Of a DNA stretch of 32,262 nucleotides, positions 16,659 to 32,262 are shown one piece after another. Each line of letters opens with the position of its first letter. Position 1 is the stretch's first letter. The notes beneath the pieces are model-generated. The model saw nothing but the letters and a program-made list of their open reading frames with translations, was not told the origin of the DNA and made no database searches. A program made the position numbers and the translations under genes. Source of the stretch: Fidelibacterota bacterium (GTDB taxonomy: Bacteria; Fidelibacterota; UBA8477); NCBI GenBank assembly GCA_021734065.1, contig JAIPJQ010000016.1:1-32262 (forward strand), written 5' to 3'.

Positions 16659-16979
16659 TTATTTTAAAGGCTTGGCTGTGGTTTTGGATCCGGACCCGCC
16701 ACCACCCGGTAAAATGGTTTCCACTTCCGAATGCGGACGAGGAATCACGTGCACCGAAACCAGTTCGCCAACCTTCTCGGCTGCTGCCGCACCCGCATCA
16801 GTTGCGGCTTTAACGGCGCCTACATCACCACGTACCATTACCGTGACAAAGCCACCACCCACATGTTCCTTACCAATTAGCCGAACATTGGCAGCTTTGA
16901 CCATGGCATCAGCTGCTTCAATCGACCCGACCAGTCCGCGGGTCTCTACCATTCCCAGCGCATCTAATGACGTAGCCAC
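16659..16979 (-). CDS. Bacterial microcompartment hexameric shell protein (BMC-H)
   Basis: The 106-residue protein is a single BMC domain closely resembling PduA/EutM/CcmK hexamer subunits that tile the shell of metabolosomes and carboxysomes. Residues 7-21 read [15 protein letters not shown]. The interface Lys is in DAMVKAANV, the pore loop is HVGGG (39-43), followed by [19 protein letters not shown] and HVIPRPH. The C-terminus has an extra flexible tail with [13 protein letters not shown]. It starts with GTG at 16979, six bases after GGAGG. It has its own promoter and terminator, and no other shell, aldehyde dehydrogenase or signature enzyme gene lies in the window. It is therefore an orphan shell gene here; its cargo locus may be elsewhere. 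Confidence 0.96.
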
Positions 16980-17032
16980 TTCGTTCCTCCAGTCCTTCGA
17001 AATTTTATCCTAATACCATCATTGTGAAGGTG

Positions 17033-27529: not shown

Positions 27530-27591
27530 AATGATGTAACCTCTGTTTCTGATTTGGGTGGGTAATGTAAGGTGGGAGGATAGCAGGAATT

Positions 27592-27657
27592 AACCACGAA
27601 TTGCACGAAAATACACGTGTTAATAGACAACCACAGATTTCACGGATTTCACAAATC
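27592..27657. repeat. Degenerate CACRRATTT repeat cluster
   Basis: Short phased units recur here: CCACGAATTG, GCACGAAAAT, ACACGTG, then CCACAGATTT, CACGGATTT and CACAAAT. The units are 9-11 bases long. They do not code for protein in a convincing way. Confidence 0.5.
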
Positions 27658-27767
27658 AAAAAGCAGATAACCGCAAAATCGCAAAGTGAAACGCAACTGC
27701 GCAGAGAAATCCAGAAGTAGAAAAGCCTGCCCGGTGAAATGCGAAGGATGAGCAAATTTCAGTAGGG

Positions 27768-27799
27768 TAGGAAAGCAGGAAAGTAGAAAAGTAGGAAAG
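27768..27799. repeat. Four tandem copies of an 8-base repeat
   Basis: The units are TAGGAAAG, CAGGAAAG, TAGAAAAG and TAGGAAAG, contiguous and in phase. This is a simple microsatellite-like array that could vary in copy number by slippage. Confidence 0.7.
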
Positions 27800-28102
27800 G
27801 GGAGCTTCATCACCGATCATCGGTATGCCAACTATCTGGCCATGAATAATACCCATGTGAATCCACTTCCTCCGCCCCGAAGGTCTCCGTTGAAGGATCA
27901 ATTTTTGGACGGCGAGAAAAAAGAGATCCTGTGATTGTCTGTGGTCATCTGTGTGGACATGTCCGGACGAAGGCGGGTCTGTGACAAAGTGACTGCGGAG
28001 ATGCTTAATCAAGTTCAGCATGACGGTTCGTTCGCGATCTGCTTTTCAATTTCTCTTTCATCTTTCTCTTTCTTCTGTTTCATACTATCCCCAATTTACC
28101 CC

Positions 28103-28748
28103 CCCCATGGTTAACACGATATAATATAACTGAGAATAAATGTTTGCATCTTGCCATCAGAGACCCTAAACTCCCACCGGTTTTTAACCAGAATACAACG
28201 AGAAGATGAGTGGAACATAGATGCTGAAGAAGACTGATGCTGTTCTGTTTACACCGGGTTTACCGGTGCGCCGGATGGTACCACGATTATTTCCTATCGT
28301 CGTCCTGCTGATGAGTCTGATGACCGCCTGCCAGGAGCCGGAAAAACCCGAACCCTACCCCAACAGCAATTTGGTACTGGAAAAGCTGGATGTGAGTTGC
28401 ACCGAAGCCTGGCTGAAATTATCTCTGACCCGGACGGACTCAGGCGCTACTGATTCCATTCCCATTATCCTGACTCGGGATGGAGAGGCGATTCAACCCT
28501 TTGCCTTCACACCACCGGAGACGCTGGTCATGGATGCGGGACTCTATCCTTCTCAAAGCTACCAGTATCAGGCGCAGCGCCAGTCGGTACACGACAATAA
28601 GGTTATCAATTCCAGCAACACCCTCACCGTCACCACCCTGGACACCACCAGTCATGATTTCACCTGGACCATAGACACCCTGGGGAGTTACGGCAGTTAT
28701 TTGAATGATGTGGCCATTATTGATGAGAACAATATCTGGGCGGTGGGG
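28103..28748 (+). repeat. Duplicated block, copy 1 (leader plus N-terminal half)
   Basis: This block aligns with 29775-30417 with few mismatches and a single 3-base gap. It covers about 118 bases of upstream DNA and the first 176 codons of the lipoprotein gene. The last 53 bases before the ATG are identical. Identity ends sharply after the codons for NNIWAVG. Confidence 0.9.
28120..28125 (+). promoter_or_regulatory. Candidate -10 box of lipoprotein gene 1
   Basis: A consensus TATAAT lies within the conserved leader, about 95 bases before the start codon. No -35 match is found at the usual distance, so this is a candidate only. The same box is kept at 29792-29797 in the second copy. Confidence 0.35.
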
Positions 28749-29609
28749 GATGTACAGACTGACAGTGGGCGCTATAACCTGGCTAAATGGGATGGCAGCC
28801 GGTGGAATTTGAGCCTTTTTGGTGTCGCAGGGGTCTCGGGAGATGGTATTTTCGCATTTTCTGAAGGTGACGTGTGGATTACGACAGGGATTATTTATCA
28901 CTGGAATGATGGGCAGTGGGAGCGATACCACCTATGGGATATGGGTGTACTTGGACCCAATGATGGTGGTGTAACCCGTGTCTGGGGCTCCTCACCGGAG
29001 GATGATGTGTGGTTTGTGGGGAATGGCGGGAGTATTGTGCATTACGACGGGAGCGGGTTTGAGCGGATGGAGAGCGGGACGGAGGTGGATTTGCATGAGA
29101 TACATGGGACTGCCGACGGTGAGTATATCTTTTTCCAAGGCAAACACTGGCAGGGCTACCGGACCATCTTACTGCAACTTCACCATGGGATTATCAGTAA
29201 AATTTATGAATGTGAGACCATGAGTCCGGGTGAGAATGACTATGGCTATCTGTACAGCTCATACTTAAGTGGCTATGCCGTTATCTCCGCTACCACGGCC
29301 GGCGTGTGGCAATACAACTACATGACCGAGCAATCAGTGTTGATACCGGACGAGGTCACCGATTCCGGGGACCGGAATGTCCAAGTCATCATAGGCAACA
29401 ATACGATTGATTATATACTGGCCGGCAACTGGTGGAAATTAATTCATTTTAACGGAATCAGTTACCGTTATAATGACCAGATTGTTCAACTGATTGGTGA
29501 AGGCGGTTCCAAACTGAATGGCGGTGATATGCGTGGTAACTTGGCAGTCATTTGTGGGGATGTCTTTTGGTGGTCCCATGCTGCAGTAGCCTTCGGACGG
29601 CGACAGTAA
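28221..29609 (+). CDS. FN3-like/propeller lipoprotein, paralogue 1
   Basis: The 462-residue product has a long N-terminal region, a hydrophobic export signal (FPIVVLLMSLMTAC, lipobox Cys 37) and an FN3/Ig-like domain at about 48-143. A series of beta repeats follows, with motifs such as NNIWAVG, EGDVWI and DDVWFVGNGGSIVHYDGSGF, as in WD-like or Ycf48-like propellers. No catalytic residues are seen; a surface binding role is inference. A second Met at residue 20 would give a more usual signal length. The gene is followed 283 bases later by a paralogue. The two agree closely up to about residue 176 and again at residues 255-280, and differ elsewhere. Confidence 0.85.
   Translation: MLKKTDAVLFTPGLPVRRMVPRLFPIVVLLMSLMTACQEPEKPEPYPNSNLVLEKLDVSCTEAWLKLSLTRTDSGATDSIPIILTRDGEAIQPFAFTPPETLVMDAGLYPSQSYQYQAQRQSVHDNKVINSSNTLTVTTLDTTSHDFTWTIDTLGSYGSYLNDVAIIDENNIWAVGDVQTDSGRYNLAKWDGSRWNLSLFGVAGVSGDGIFAFSEGDVWITTGIIYHWNDGQWERYHLWDMGVLGPNDGGVTRVWGSSPEDDVWFVGNGGSIVHYDGSGFERMESGTEVDLHEIHGTADGEYIFFQGKHWQGYRTILLQLHHGIISKIYECETMSPGENDYGYLYSSYLSGYAVISATTAGVWQYNYMTEQSVLIPDEVTDSGDRNVQVIIGNNTIDYILAGNWWKLIHFNGISYRYNDQIVQLIGEGGSKLNGGDMRGNLAVICGDVFWWSHAAVAFGRRQ
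28981..29060 (+). repeat. Conserved island of the lipoprotein pair, copy 1
   Basis: This 80-base segment encodes WGSSPEDDVWFVGNGG and the following IVHYDGSGF. It matches 30641-30717 almost perfectly apart from one extra codon (GAT), although the sequences on both sides are unrelated. It is the second anchor of the mosaic pair. Confidence 0.85.
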
Positions 29610-29774
29610 ACCTTAAATAAAAAACTGAAGGGAGCGACTATGTCAGCTTGAATGAACGACTTCAAAAAGAAGTCCGATGGAAAGGCCGCGAAACCTGCGT
29701 CGCAATTCGATCCGGTGGTGTCAATGAAACGGTGTCCTCTCTTCCTTCTATTTTATAATAACGCTCGCTTACGC

Positions 29775-30417
29775 CCCCATGATTAACACAATATAATATA
29801 ACAGAGAATATATAGTTGCATCTTACCGGCAAAGACCTTAAACTCCCACCGGTTTTTAACCAGAATACAACGAGAAGATGAGTGGAACATAGATGCTGAA
29901 GAAGACTGATGCTGTTCTGTTTACACCGGGTTTACCGGTGCGCCGGATGGTACCACGATTAATTCCTATCGTCCTGCTGCTGAGTCTGATGACCACCTGC
30001 CAGGAGCCGGAAAAACCCGAGCCCTACCCCGACAGTGACCTGGTGCTGGAAAAGCTGGATGTCTCCTGCACGGAAGCCTGGCTGAGGCTGGTCCTGACAC
30101 AGACCGACTCAGGCGCTACTGATTCCATTCCCATTATCCTGACCCGGGATGGAGAGGCGATTCAACCCTTTGCCTTCACACCACCGGAGACGCTGGTCAT
30201 GGATGCGGGACTCTATCCTTCCCATAGCTACCAGTATCAGGTGCAGCGTCAGTCGGTTCACGATAATAAGATCATAGACTCCAGCAACACCCTCACGGTC
30301 ACGACGCTGGACACCACCAGTCATGATTTTACCTGGACCATTGACACGCTGGGGAATTACGGTAGTTATCTGAATGATGTGGCCATGATTGATGAAGATA
30401 ATATCTGGGCGGTGGGG
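29775..30417 (+). repeat. Duplicated block, copy 2 (leader plus N-terminal half)
   Basis: This copy matches 28103-28748 at a constant offset of 1672 bases, changing to 1669 after one deleted codon in the signal-peptide region. Mismatches are scattered and mostly silent or conservative in the coding part. The upstream 165 bases between the first gene's stop and this block show no gene. Confidence 0.9.
29792..29797 (+). promoter_or_regulatory. Candidate -10 box of lipoprotein gene 2
   Basis: TATAAT is preserved at the same place as in copy 1, about 95 bases before the start codon. There is no good -35 box. Confidence 0.35.
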
Positions 30418-31257
30418 ATGATTGAAACCGATTCAGGTTCCTACAATGCTGCGCATTGGGAAGGGGAAGAATGGGGGTTGGTAAGAATTGCTCCTCCTCC
30501 CTTTCTCTTTGCGCCTTTGACAAGTATCTATGCACTATCGGGTACCGATGTCTGGGTAGCTGGCACGGCACCAATGGAATTTGATGGTGAGATATGGAAT
30601 GCTAAACCAACATATCCCACCTCGGGCTGGATCAACGCCATCTGGGGCTCTTCGCCGGAGGATGTGTGGTTTGTGGGGAATGGTGGGAGTATTGTGCACT
30701 ACGACGGGAGCGGGTTTGTGGCAATAAATAATCTTACTGATTTGGACTTAGTCTCAATTACAGGTTCGGGATCCAATAATGTATGGGTTTCAGGAAATAA
30801 TCTTACTACCGGTGGCATCAATCAGATTTTATTGCATTTCGATGGACAAAACTGGGAGCAAGTACTGTACAACACTGTCACGAATATTCGAGTACCCAAT
30901 TATATCTCTGGATTCATTGCAGGGGTGTACATTGAATCACCTTTCAATATTCTGCTCTACACTCATTTAGGTTTTTACCGTGCATCTGTGAGTACACGAG
31001 GTGAAGCCGAATTTTTATGGAATACCAGTAATGATGGTACAGCCATTGAAGTGTTGATAGGAAATGATCGCAACGATCTATTTGCTGCAGGGAGTCATGC
31101 TCGGATTTGGCATTTCAATGGCAACAATTTTCGCGGTTACCCGGCTATTCCTGATGTTGGTACTATTAACGGGGGGGCAATAAATAGAAATTACGCTGTA
31201 TTTGTCGGTTCAACCTACTCAGATTATCACAGCTTCGTGATCAAAGGATACAGATAA
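29893..31257 (+). CDS. FN3-like/propeller lipoprotein, paralogue 2
   Basis: This 454-residue paralogue has the same N-terminus (signal, lipobox LMTTC with Cys 36, FN3-like domain) and the same central island WGSSPEDVWFVGNGG. Its variable parts are different: SGTDVWVAG, GSGSNNVWVSG, LLHFDGQNWEQ and RIWHFNGNNF show propeller-type repeats of about 40-50 residues. The gene's last third is more AT-rich than its 5' half. The stop codon lies within a short ACAG-ATAAACAGG-type intergenic repeat. Its role is unknown; membrane-attached binding protein is the best guess. Together with its neighbour it is one member of what looks like a multi-copy family. Confidence 0.85.
   Translation: MLKKTDAVLFTPGLPVRRMVPRLIPIVLLLSLMTTCQEPEKPEPYPDSDLVLEKLDVSCTEAWLRLVLTQTDSGATDSIPIILTRDGEAIQPFAFTPPETLVMDAGLYPSHSYQYQVQRQSVHDNKIIDSSNTLTVTTLDTTSHDFTWTIDTLGNYGSYLNDVAMIDEDNIWAVGMIETDSGSYNAAHWEGEEWGLVRIAPPPFLFAPLTSIYALSGTDVWVAGTAPMEFDGEIWNAKPTYPTSGWINAIWGSSPEDVWFVGNGGSIVHYDGSGFVAINNLTDLDLVSITGSGSNNVWVSGNNLTTGGINQILLHFDGQNWEQVLYNTVTNIRVPNYISGFIAGVYIESPFNILLYTHLGFYRASVSTRGEAEFLWNTSNDGTAIEVLIGNDRNDLFAAGSHARIWHFNGNNFRGYPAIPDVGTINGGAINRNYAVFVGSTYSDYHSFVIKGYR
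30641..30717 (+). repeat. Conserved island of the lipoprotein pair, copy 2
   Basis: This segment is nearly identical to 28981-29060 but lacks one GAT codon. The distance from the end of the shared N-terminal block is 223 bases here against 232 in copy 1, both kept in frame. Confidence 0.85.
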
Positions 31258-31332: not shown

Positions 31333-31367
31333 AAGGCAACACCACCAATAATTTATCGGGTTGCCTT
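31333..31367 (+). promoter_or_regulatory. Inverted repeat just before the truncated secreted-protein gene
   Basis: AAGGCAAC (31333-31340) pairs with GTTGCCTT (31360-31367) across 19 bases. It ends about 10 bases before the AAGAGGG ribosome binding site of the next gene. It may be a terminator of upstream transcription or a leader hairpin. Confidence 0.35.
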
Positions 31368-31389
31368 GAAAAAGAAAGAGGGCAAGAAC

Positions 31390-32184
31390 ATGAAACATTT
31401 CACAAATATTTTAAACCTGGTTATTTCTTCATCAATATGGATCTTTTCTCCGAGTATAGGAATTTGCCAACAATACACAGGCTTTGTTCCCTTCAACCAA
31501 ACTGACTCCCCCTCATTCTCTAACACACGTACATTTGCCAATGCAGATTCATTGACGTATAAATCTGGTTTTGCAAAAGGATATACTATTGAGGTTCAGT
31601 TACACAAAAAAATGGACGAGCCATGGCTAGATCCAGCGTATAGGGTTGATATGAATAATGACGGAGATTGGGAAACAGGTTGGAGATCGAATGAATCAAC
31701 AGTCACTTTTGATTATCCGCCTGTTGATGCAGATGAATATGGAACCAGTACAATACACCTATATACTCGGCACTATGTCGACAATGATCCAGTATATAAC
31801 GATTACTATTTCGATGTTTTAACCATGCATACACCTGATTATGCTTTTGACACGGCAGCAGCAGATTTGATGGTTGGCTTTGTAAGCTCTGACGGCATCT
31901 TGGATAAACCGCTGGTCATTGTTGAAGGATTTGATTCATTCAATTCTATCTGGCCATCTTATTATTACTATTCACTACGTCACATGATATCAGACTATTT
32001 AAGTCCTGCAGGATATGACATTTTTATTATTAACTATGCTGATGGCTCGACATTTCTTCAGGATAACGCCATGGTTGTACTTGGGGCACTTGAAAAAATA
32101 GTGAGCCTAAATTGTCCCATTACCTGTCAGCGGGCACTTGAAACTGGGCCACTTGTGGGCACTTCAAAGTGGGCCACCCTTTGA
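31390..32184 (+). CDS. Secreted alpha/beta-hydrolase-like protein, truncated by an IS (probable pseudogene)
   Basis: The frame starts at ATG 31390 behind AAGAGGG and encodes a signal peptide (ILNLVISSSIWIFSPSIGIC) and a beta-rich N-terminal region. Then follows KPLVIVEGFDSF, with SPAGYDIFIINYADGSTFLQ. This last part resembles the first strands of a secreted hydrolase family in which a GxSxG serine motif comes some 30 residues later. That motif is missing: after VVLGALEKIVSLN the frame runs into the terminal repeats of a mobile element at about 32125, so the last 20 or so residues are IS-derived. The gene is thus broken. It is clearly more AT-rich than the conserved operons to the left, suggesting recent acquisition. 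Confidence 0.75.
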   Translation: MKHFTNILNLVISSSIWIFSPSIGICQQYTGFVPFNQTDSPSFSNTRTFANADSLTYKSGFAKGYTIEVQLHKKMDEPWLDPAYRVDMNNDGDWETGWRSNESTVTFDYPPVDADEYGTSTIHLYTRHYVDNDPVYNDYYFDVLTMHTPDYAFDTAAADLMVGFVSSDGILDKPLVIVEGFDSFNSIWPSYYYYSLRHMISDYLSPAGYDIFIINYADGSTFLQDNAMVVLGALEKIVSLNCPITCQRALETGPLVGTSKWATL

Positions 32185-32262
32185 GCGTAGTTTAGCTGTC
32201 TGATTTCTTCTTCTCCAACTTCTTTTCTTCGATATTCATTTCTCCTTTTGTGATGTTTCTAA
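32125..32262. mobile_element. End of an IS21-like insertion sequence (continues past the window)
   Basis: From TGTCAGCGGG at 32125 the sequence changes character and carries two direct copies of a 22-base unit (GGGCACTT...GGGCCAC, at 32132-32153 and 32157-32178, 25 bases apart). A TG terminus and repeated subterminal transposase-binding units are typical of IS21-family ends. A small frame on the minus strand ends at 32192. The element has interrupted the gene on its left; its other end lies outside the window, so the family call is tentative. Confidence 0.6.
32192..32262 (-). CDS. C-terminal fragment of an IS-encoded protein, possibly IstB
   Basis: Only the last 23 codons are in the window: a lysine- and glutamate-rich tail reading RNITKGEMNIEEKKLEKKK and ending in SDS. 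It enters from the right edge and stops 14 bases before the subterminal repeats, the place where the istB ATPase helper gene ends in IS21 elements. The identification rests on position and not on recognisable motifs. Confidence 0.35.
   Translation of the reverse strand, partial: RNITKGEMNIEEKKLEKKKSDS

Follow-up and report, generated by a model that had tools for sequence, protein, structure and literature searches.

Two adjacent genes in the window, the 32,262-nucleotide stretch of DNA that we analyzed, are mosaics in which variable cassettes alternate with constant segments; trees of different segments of the pair are incongruent, and in a related genome discrete cassettes have been replaced inside duplicated blocks. 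The pattern is likely best explained by homologous recombination that uses the constant segments as anchors and acts both among paralogs and between strains. The pair belongs to a multicopy family of propeller lipoproteins, so far unnamed, with members in Neomarinimicrobiota and neighbouring phyla.

Architecture of the gene pair

The window is contig C146 of G000, a 2.5-Mb MAG (82% complete, 170 contigs) which the names of its nearest relatives assign to Candidatus Neomarinimicrobiota and which also carries a third copy, cut by a contig end (C69), and a fourth without FN3 (C167). Genes 1 and 2 lie in tandem on the same strand, both with open reading frames, and consist of the following segments.

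28101..28220, + strand: constant leader 5′ of gene 1 (promoter/5′ UTR region), with 28168-28290 nearly identical to 29840-29962
28221..29609, + strand: gene 1 (P0001, 462 aa), lipoprotein with FN3 and seven-bladed propeller (ORF, AlphaFold model)
28221..28331, + strand: gene 1 signal peptide to the invariant lipobox Cys37 (lipobox SLMTAC)
28332..28748, + strand: gene 1 constant block of linker, FN3 (residues 51-138), closing strand and first half of blade 1 (alignment, fold)
28749..28980, + strand: gene 1 variable middle cassette, remainder of blade 1 plus blade 2 (amino-acid identity 28% to gene 2, 82% to G001:C16, 79% to G002:C50)
28981..29061, + strand: gene 1 island, constant blade 3 (alignment, fold model)
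29062..29609, + strand: gene 1 variable C cassette, blades 4-7 (amino-acid identity 25% to gene 2, 49% to G003:C56)
29773..29892, + strand: constant leader 5′ of gene 2 (alignment)
29893..31257, + strand: gene 2 (P0002, 454 aa), architecture as gene 1 (ORF, AlphaFold model)
29893..30417, + strand: gene 2 constant block of signal, FN3 and first half of blade 1 (alignment)
30418..30640, + strand: gene 2 variable middle cassette (segment identity)
30641..30718, + strand: gene 2 island, constant blade 3 (alignment, fold model)
30719..31257, + strand: gene 2 variable C cassette, blades 4-7 (amino-acid identity 48% to G076:C69, 25% to gene 1)

The leader, signal and FN3 are common to both genes over ~645 bp (28101-28748 and 29773-30417), at about 90% DNA identity by global alignment and 90.2% over 652 columns by blastn; local identity ranged from 75 to 100%, and identity over residues 45-176 was 88.7%. 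The 5′ identity broke off at the NIWAVG codons, and similarity over 28749-28980 and 30418-30640 was down to the level of unrelated coding sequences. The island (81 and 78 bp) again showed about 91% DNA identity, with one in-frame 3-bp indel, and its ungapped core matched at 64 of 71 positions compared to a maximum of 38 of 71 in codon-shuffled controls. Its 3′ edge was abrupt at GGGTTTG, and no DNA similarity between the genes was found beyond it. Protein identity was 92, 28, 81, and 25% for the N, middle, island, and C segments, respectively, and the reading frame was kept across every border in both genes. The original prediction, made from sequence alone, had described ~645 shared bases, full divergence, an island of ~80 bases and a second divergence, all in frame. 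Each of these elements held, but describing the 5′ block as almost unchanged slightly overstated its identity.

AlphaFold models calculated with a 17-sequence alignment gave an FN3 domain (residues 51-138) and a propeller for both proteins (mean pLDDT 84 and 80), with seven blades in each by our own count. These models back the FN3-like domain and propeller that had been predicted together with a lipoprotein signal; the lipobox Cys was invariant in the alignment of 17 family members, and the lipobox of gene 1 was assigned by eye. Mapped onto the fold, the constant block reaches into the second strand of blade 1, where it stops, and the island corresponds to blade 3; the variable segments form what is left of blade 1 together with blade 2, and then blades 4-7. 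Searches of Pfam, NCBIfam, and PADLOC gave no match to the family that was above cut-off or convincing, a sequence profile search of the PDB gave none at all, and a fold search returned only generic WD40-type and other propellers, without a functional hint. Rfam matches to the leader as an RNA element were at chance level only, and we found no literature on this lipoprotein family.

Two features flank the pair. The intergenic region 5′ of gene 1 (27590-28060) contains short sequences, such as ACCACAGATTTCACGGATTTCAC, that occur at several sites in the related genomes G001 and G002. An ORF of 272 aa with a signal peptide and no Pfam match lies 3′ of gene 2 (31366-32262) and is apparently truncated near its 3′ end by the repeat-like GGGCACTTGAAACTGGGCCACTTGTGGGCACTTCAAAGTGGGCCACC, which resembles an insertion-sequence terminus; the contig ends there, and no second copy was found in the assembly.

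Segment relatives and trees of the pair

The closest relative of gene 1 differed by segment, being gene 2 for the N segment, G001 and then G002 for the middle, and G003, which represents another family, for the C segment; the C segment of gene 2 was closest to G076. Trees of the N data supported a clade of the two window proteins, P1 and P2, at 99.9. The C data rejected this clade (AU p = 0.001, lnL 94.6 lower) and supported a clade of P2 with G076 at 96.5. On the N data, the AU test of the P2+G076 clade was not significant (p 0.121), and thus the N side of the incongruence depends on the support of 99.9 for P1+P2. These trees were quick and used a simple model. The original prediction that blades are swapped by recombination between fixed anchors is supported: exchange is inferred from incongruent trees in the window pair itself and is demonstrated in its relatives.

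Cassette replacement in a single-contig genome

Most relatives that carry the family are fragmented MAGs, and G036 is a single contig, with nine family copies at four places. A 3.6-kb duplicated block (L109:15028-18670 and L110:12875-16517) was ~99% identical, with 28 differences in about 3,395 columns excepting the middle cassette, and this 228-bp cassette was the sole part replaced. The first 144 bp of the L109 middle cassette were 99.3% identical to three further G036 genes, and the L110 counterpart was unique within G036. A second pair of twin blocks, of 2.3 kb (L110:8497-10843 and L112:7489-9834), was about 98.7% identical, with divergence starting at the end of the island; the C cassette of the L112 block was 95.5% identical to that of L109_6856. 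A 33-residue tail of the same C class as L112 and L109_6856 was found 3′ of the stop codon of the L110 twin gene, which therefore probably once ended like its L112 twin and later received a different C cassette. This was the only fossil tail among 138 genes, and we rejected such tails as a general signature.

Middle and C segments in G036 behave as discrete cassettes in new combinations, mostly at 95-100% DNA identity. L110_6510, L110_7995, and L112_9023 have the front, middle and island in common (97-99%) and three different C cassettes; L109_6856, L111_6322, and L112_9023 have a C class in common (85-96%) and different middles; and L109_15333 and L110_13180 have C segments at 99% and different middles. 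Because all four combinations of middle and C classes are present, either recombination or repeated convergence at the DNA level is needed.

Several other elements adjoin these copies. IS256 transposase copies (L110:11238-12473 and L109:13728-15028) are 99% identical and adjoin the 3.6-kb blocks, in opposite orientation relative to the neighbouring block; they may have aided block duplication. An element of 70-85 bp 5′ of a G036 copy (L110:14550-14635 and about 16970-17000) resembles REP/MITE-like interspersed repeats and is present at dozens of intergenic sites, in both orientations, in G036, G047, and G026. A DUF3160 protein with a T9SS sorting tail adjoins a G036 cluster (L110:3915-6362), and an FG-GAP protein with a T9SS tail (L110:14676-16442) was co-duplicated with a lipoprotein block.

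Probable exchange between species

The middle cassette of L110_13180 was identical at 227 of 228 positions to a cassette in G026, which belongs to the same genus as G036 but to another species. As a divergence baseline we used the rpoB locus, at which G036 and G026 are 89.2% identical; L112:12001-15209 was unsuitable, as genes there hardly match. At rpoB-level divergence, the probability of one or no mismatch in 228 positions is about 1e-10, with the caveat that the case was chosen post hoc. 3′ of this cassette, G026 has the beginning of a C cassette with 97% identity to another G036 class. Cassettes have thus probably been exchanged between species. Evidence for exchange comes from comparing loci and species, not from observation in real time, and includes neither a strain series nor reads.

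Distribution and generality

Family members were found in 59 of 245 genomes and 31 of 84 genera of Neomarinimicrobiota, often as multiple copies, and also in records named Ignavibacteria, Calditrichota, and Balneola; Gracilimonas mengyeensis (locus L087), which is in culture, likewise has the family. Copy numbers across Neomarinimicrobiota are lower bounds, with at most seven candidates scored per genome. Some members lack FN3 (L007:2-1111, which is G000:C167, and L119, L115, and L123) and have a lipobox followed by a short linker that is sometimes Cys-rich (CGEDSQECC), suggesting that FN3 itself is a dispensable or replaceable module.

Mean identities of the N, middle, island, and C segments were 64, 43, 64, and 25% within genomes and 34, 32, 50, and 21% between genomes. 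C-termini within a genome are thus barely closer to each other than those of distant members, whereas N-termini are far closer. The C identities of the 43 within-genome pairs whose N segments were at least 70% identical formed two peaks, with 38 pairs below 50%, none at 50-80%, and five at 80% or above. A position profile averaged over 11 genomes showed a fall, an island, and a second fall, as in the window pair; these pairs were preselected for low C identity, and the profile is informative only on the shape and position of borders. The leader and signal were 86-98% identical over 120-270 bp between genes of G036 and G235 whose N, middle, and C segments were all below about 45%, and 90-98% identical over 267-305 bp between genes of G121 with dissimilar middle and C segments. 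The leader and signal therefore behave as a separate module. The original prediction had not noticed this module, having assigned expression and export to the constant part as a whole.

A rival explanation starts from a simple tandem duplication, after which blades 1-2 and 4-7 would have diverged quickly, either because constraint was weak or through positive selection, while blade 3 stayed under strong constraint. In its favour, no other part of the propeller is as well conserved across the family as the island (between-genome mean 50% vs 21% for C), and constraint adds to the visibility of the island. However, C identities of close paralogs are two-peaked rather than graded, cassette classes at 95-100% DNA identity are common to genes that differ elsewhere, and the C data reject the P1+P2 clade and group P2 with G076. 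We consider this explanation very unlikely, and as a general account, duplication with a fast-evolving end is refuted by the 3.6-kb and 2.3-kb twin blocks of G036. A check for smooth divergence of other copies, or for C-termini at uniform distance, found neither.

Of 21 contigs terminating within family genes, nine stop just past the island (P about 5e-5 by simulation), and those starting within family genes mostly start in the constant N region (18 of 19). Such clustering is the assembly signature expected where a constant segment is linked to more than one variable segment, be it in one genome or among strains. It also raises the possibility of an assembly chimera, in which the front of one gene was misjoined to the tail of another at shared segments: G000 is incomplete and in 170 contigs, assemblers fail at shared segments, and many contigs end inside family genes. 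Against a chimera, the shared segments are ~10% divergent, sufficient to tell them apart; single-contig G036 shows the same mosaics; the middle class of gene 1 is also found with a close N relative in G002; and a misjoin would itself require shared fronts with several tails. This alternative is thus also very unlikely.

Mechanism and function

In the recombination model that we favour, each copy is a mosaic of five modules. The constant leader/signal and the constant FN3 come first, followed by two variable cassettes, one spanning the end of blade 1 and blade 2 and the other blades 4-7, with the constant blade 3 between them. These cassettes would pass among copies, and among strains or species, through gene conversion or homologous recombination with endpoints in the constant segments; intact paralogs and outside DNA would be the donors. 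We propose RecA-type recombination; this process or gene conversion among intact paralogs fits because breakpoints lie in constant homologous segments with flanks at 99%. A ComEC-type gene was present in seven of eight genomes searched, making DNA uptake plausible only. The predicted outcome is that lipoproteins with differing propeller faces share one expression and export apparatus.

A dedicated diversification system, with a specific recombinase, retroelement or silent cassette store and a programmed rate, would be a further alternative. Clean in-frame borders at conserved strands, many copies, and a leader conserved for expression favour it. Against it, no RVT_1 reverse transcriptase was found in either G000 (82% complete) or G036 (one contig), with positive controls; a profile search of G036 found no cassette array, its hits being nine intact copies, one tail fragment, and three short, distant relatives; the window has no strong inverted repeats; and no phase tracts were found. 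We judge a dedicated system very unlikely, on evidence that for recombinases extends only to selected G036 neighbours.

Specific mechanisms were also considered individually. A DGR was rejected, as neither of the two genomes (G000, G036) has the reverse transcriptase. Silent-cassette gene conversion of the vls/pilS type was rejected, as the G036 profile search gave no promoterless donor cassettes, and phase variation was rejected, as no repeat tracts were found, including in the leader. No shufflon-type inverted repeats were found at cassette borders in the window, only 22-nt arms of 77-82% identity far from the borders. A scan of selected G036 neighbours, which was not genome-wide, found no site-specific recombinase and the IS256 transposase.

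Homologous recombination remains our preferred mechanism. For the function, our inference rests on architecture: an FN3 stalk with a lipid anchor, holding out a propeller whose blades can be exchanged, points to a surface binding protein. Most likely, family members would be outer-surface binding proteins diversified for different ligands or for escape from phages or other recognising agents. Surface exposure is inferred from the lipobox and acidic N-terminus and remains a prediction only, because this N-terminus is no clean match to the published export signal (PMC5080379). The recombination enzymes, exchange rate, surface position, binding, selective agent, and present-day exchange are likewise inferences, and there are no binding data. 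Of the original prediction of a diversification system for surface-attached binding proteins, several elements are not established: exposure at the surface, binding of ligands, a dedicated system, and switching in a living population. A bolder reading, which we hold to be less likely than not, is a widespread combinatorial recognition repertoire in environmental bacteria, in which ancient blade cassettes would be reassorted at blade borders across copies, strains, and species into the binding faces of propeller lipoproteins, with diversity kept by selection from phages, predators or kin recognition.

Comparison with known systems

Surface proteins that vary combinatorially are known chiefly in pathogens facing host immunity; if an unnamed protein family of largely uncultured aquatic phyla showed the same pattern, it would follow that another selective force keeps it. 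Exchange of blade blocks in a fixed framework also shows that propellers tolerate such swaps, and the natural cassettes of the family offer defined material for testing ligand specificity.

Opa of pathogenic Neisseria has several intact loci, a constant framework with variable regions, and near-identical alleles at different loci (PMC13183285). Opa proteins are eight-stranded barrels with phase-variable repeats, and opa segments are reassorted among loci by recombination, a topic also treated elsewhere (PMC5020929). The window family shares the several intact paralogs per genome with a constant frame and variable segments and, in G036, the reassortment of variable segments between loci. It differs in consisting of lipid-anchored propellers, without a phase-variable leader repeat and in non-pathogenic hosts, and in the suggested interspecies exchange, which is little supported for gonococcal opa (PMC13183285).

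The vlsE system of Borrelia likewise replaces segments of a surface lipoprotein inside a constant frame (PMC2779866, PMC3585125), but in vls a single expressed gene is accompanied by an array of silent cassettes, and no such store was found in G036. Polymorphic toxins replace C-terminal cassettes through recombination (PMC3482391). They also leave old tips as orphans downstream, comparable to the one case at the L110 twin gene. In the window family, however, C cassettes are propeller blades rather than toxin domains, and middle cassettes are replaced as well.

The HNWD proteins of Podospora anserina (het-d/het-e/het-r) have a propeller as specificity domain, with repeat units swapped within and between paralogs (PMC1805685, PMC2873952). 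HNWD proteins are cytoplasmic STAND proteins with near-identical WD40 repeats in variable number, whereas blades in the window family are dissimilar, number seven in both models, and move between copies in multi-blade blocks; the window genes contain no tandem repeat array of the high-identity, variable-number HNWD type. The window family lacks features by which DGRs, silent-cassette systems, and HNWD repeats are defined. By analogy, it would work like Opa reassortment and, at the level of the propeller unit, somewhat like fungal HNWD.
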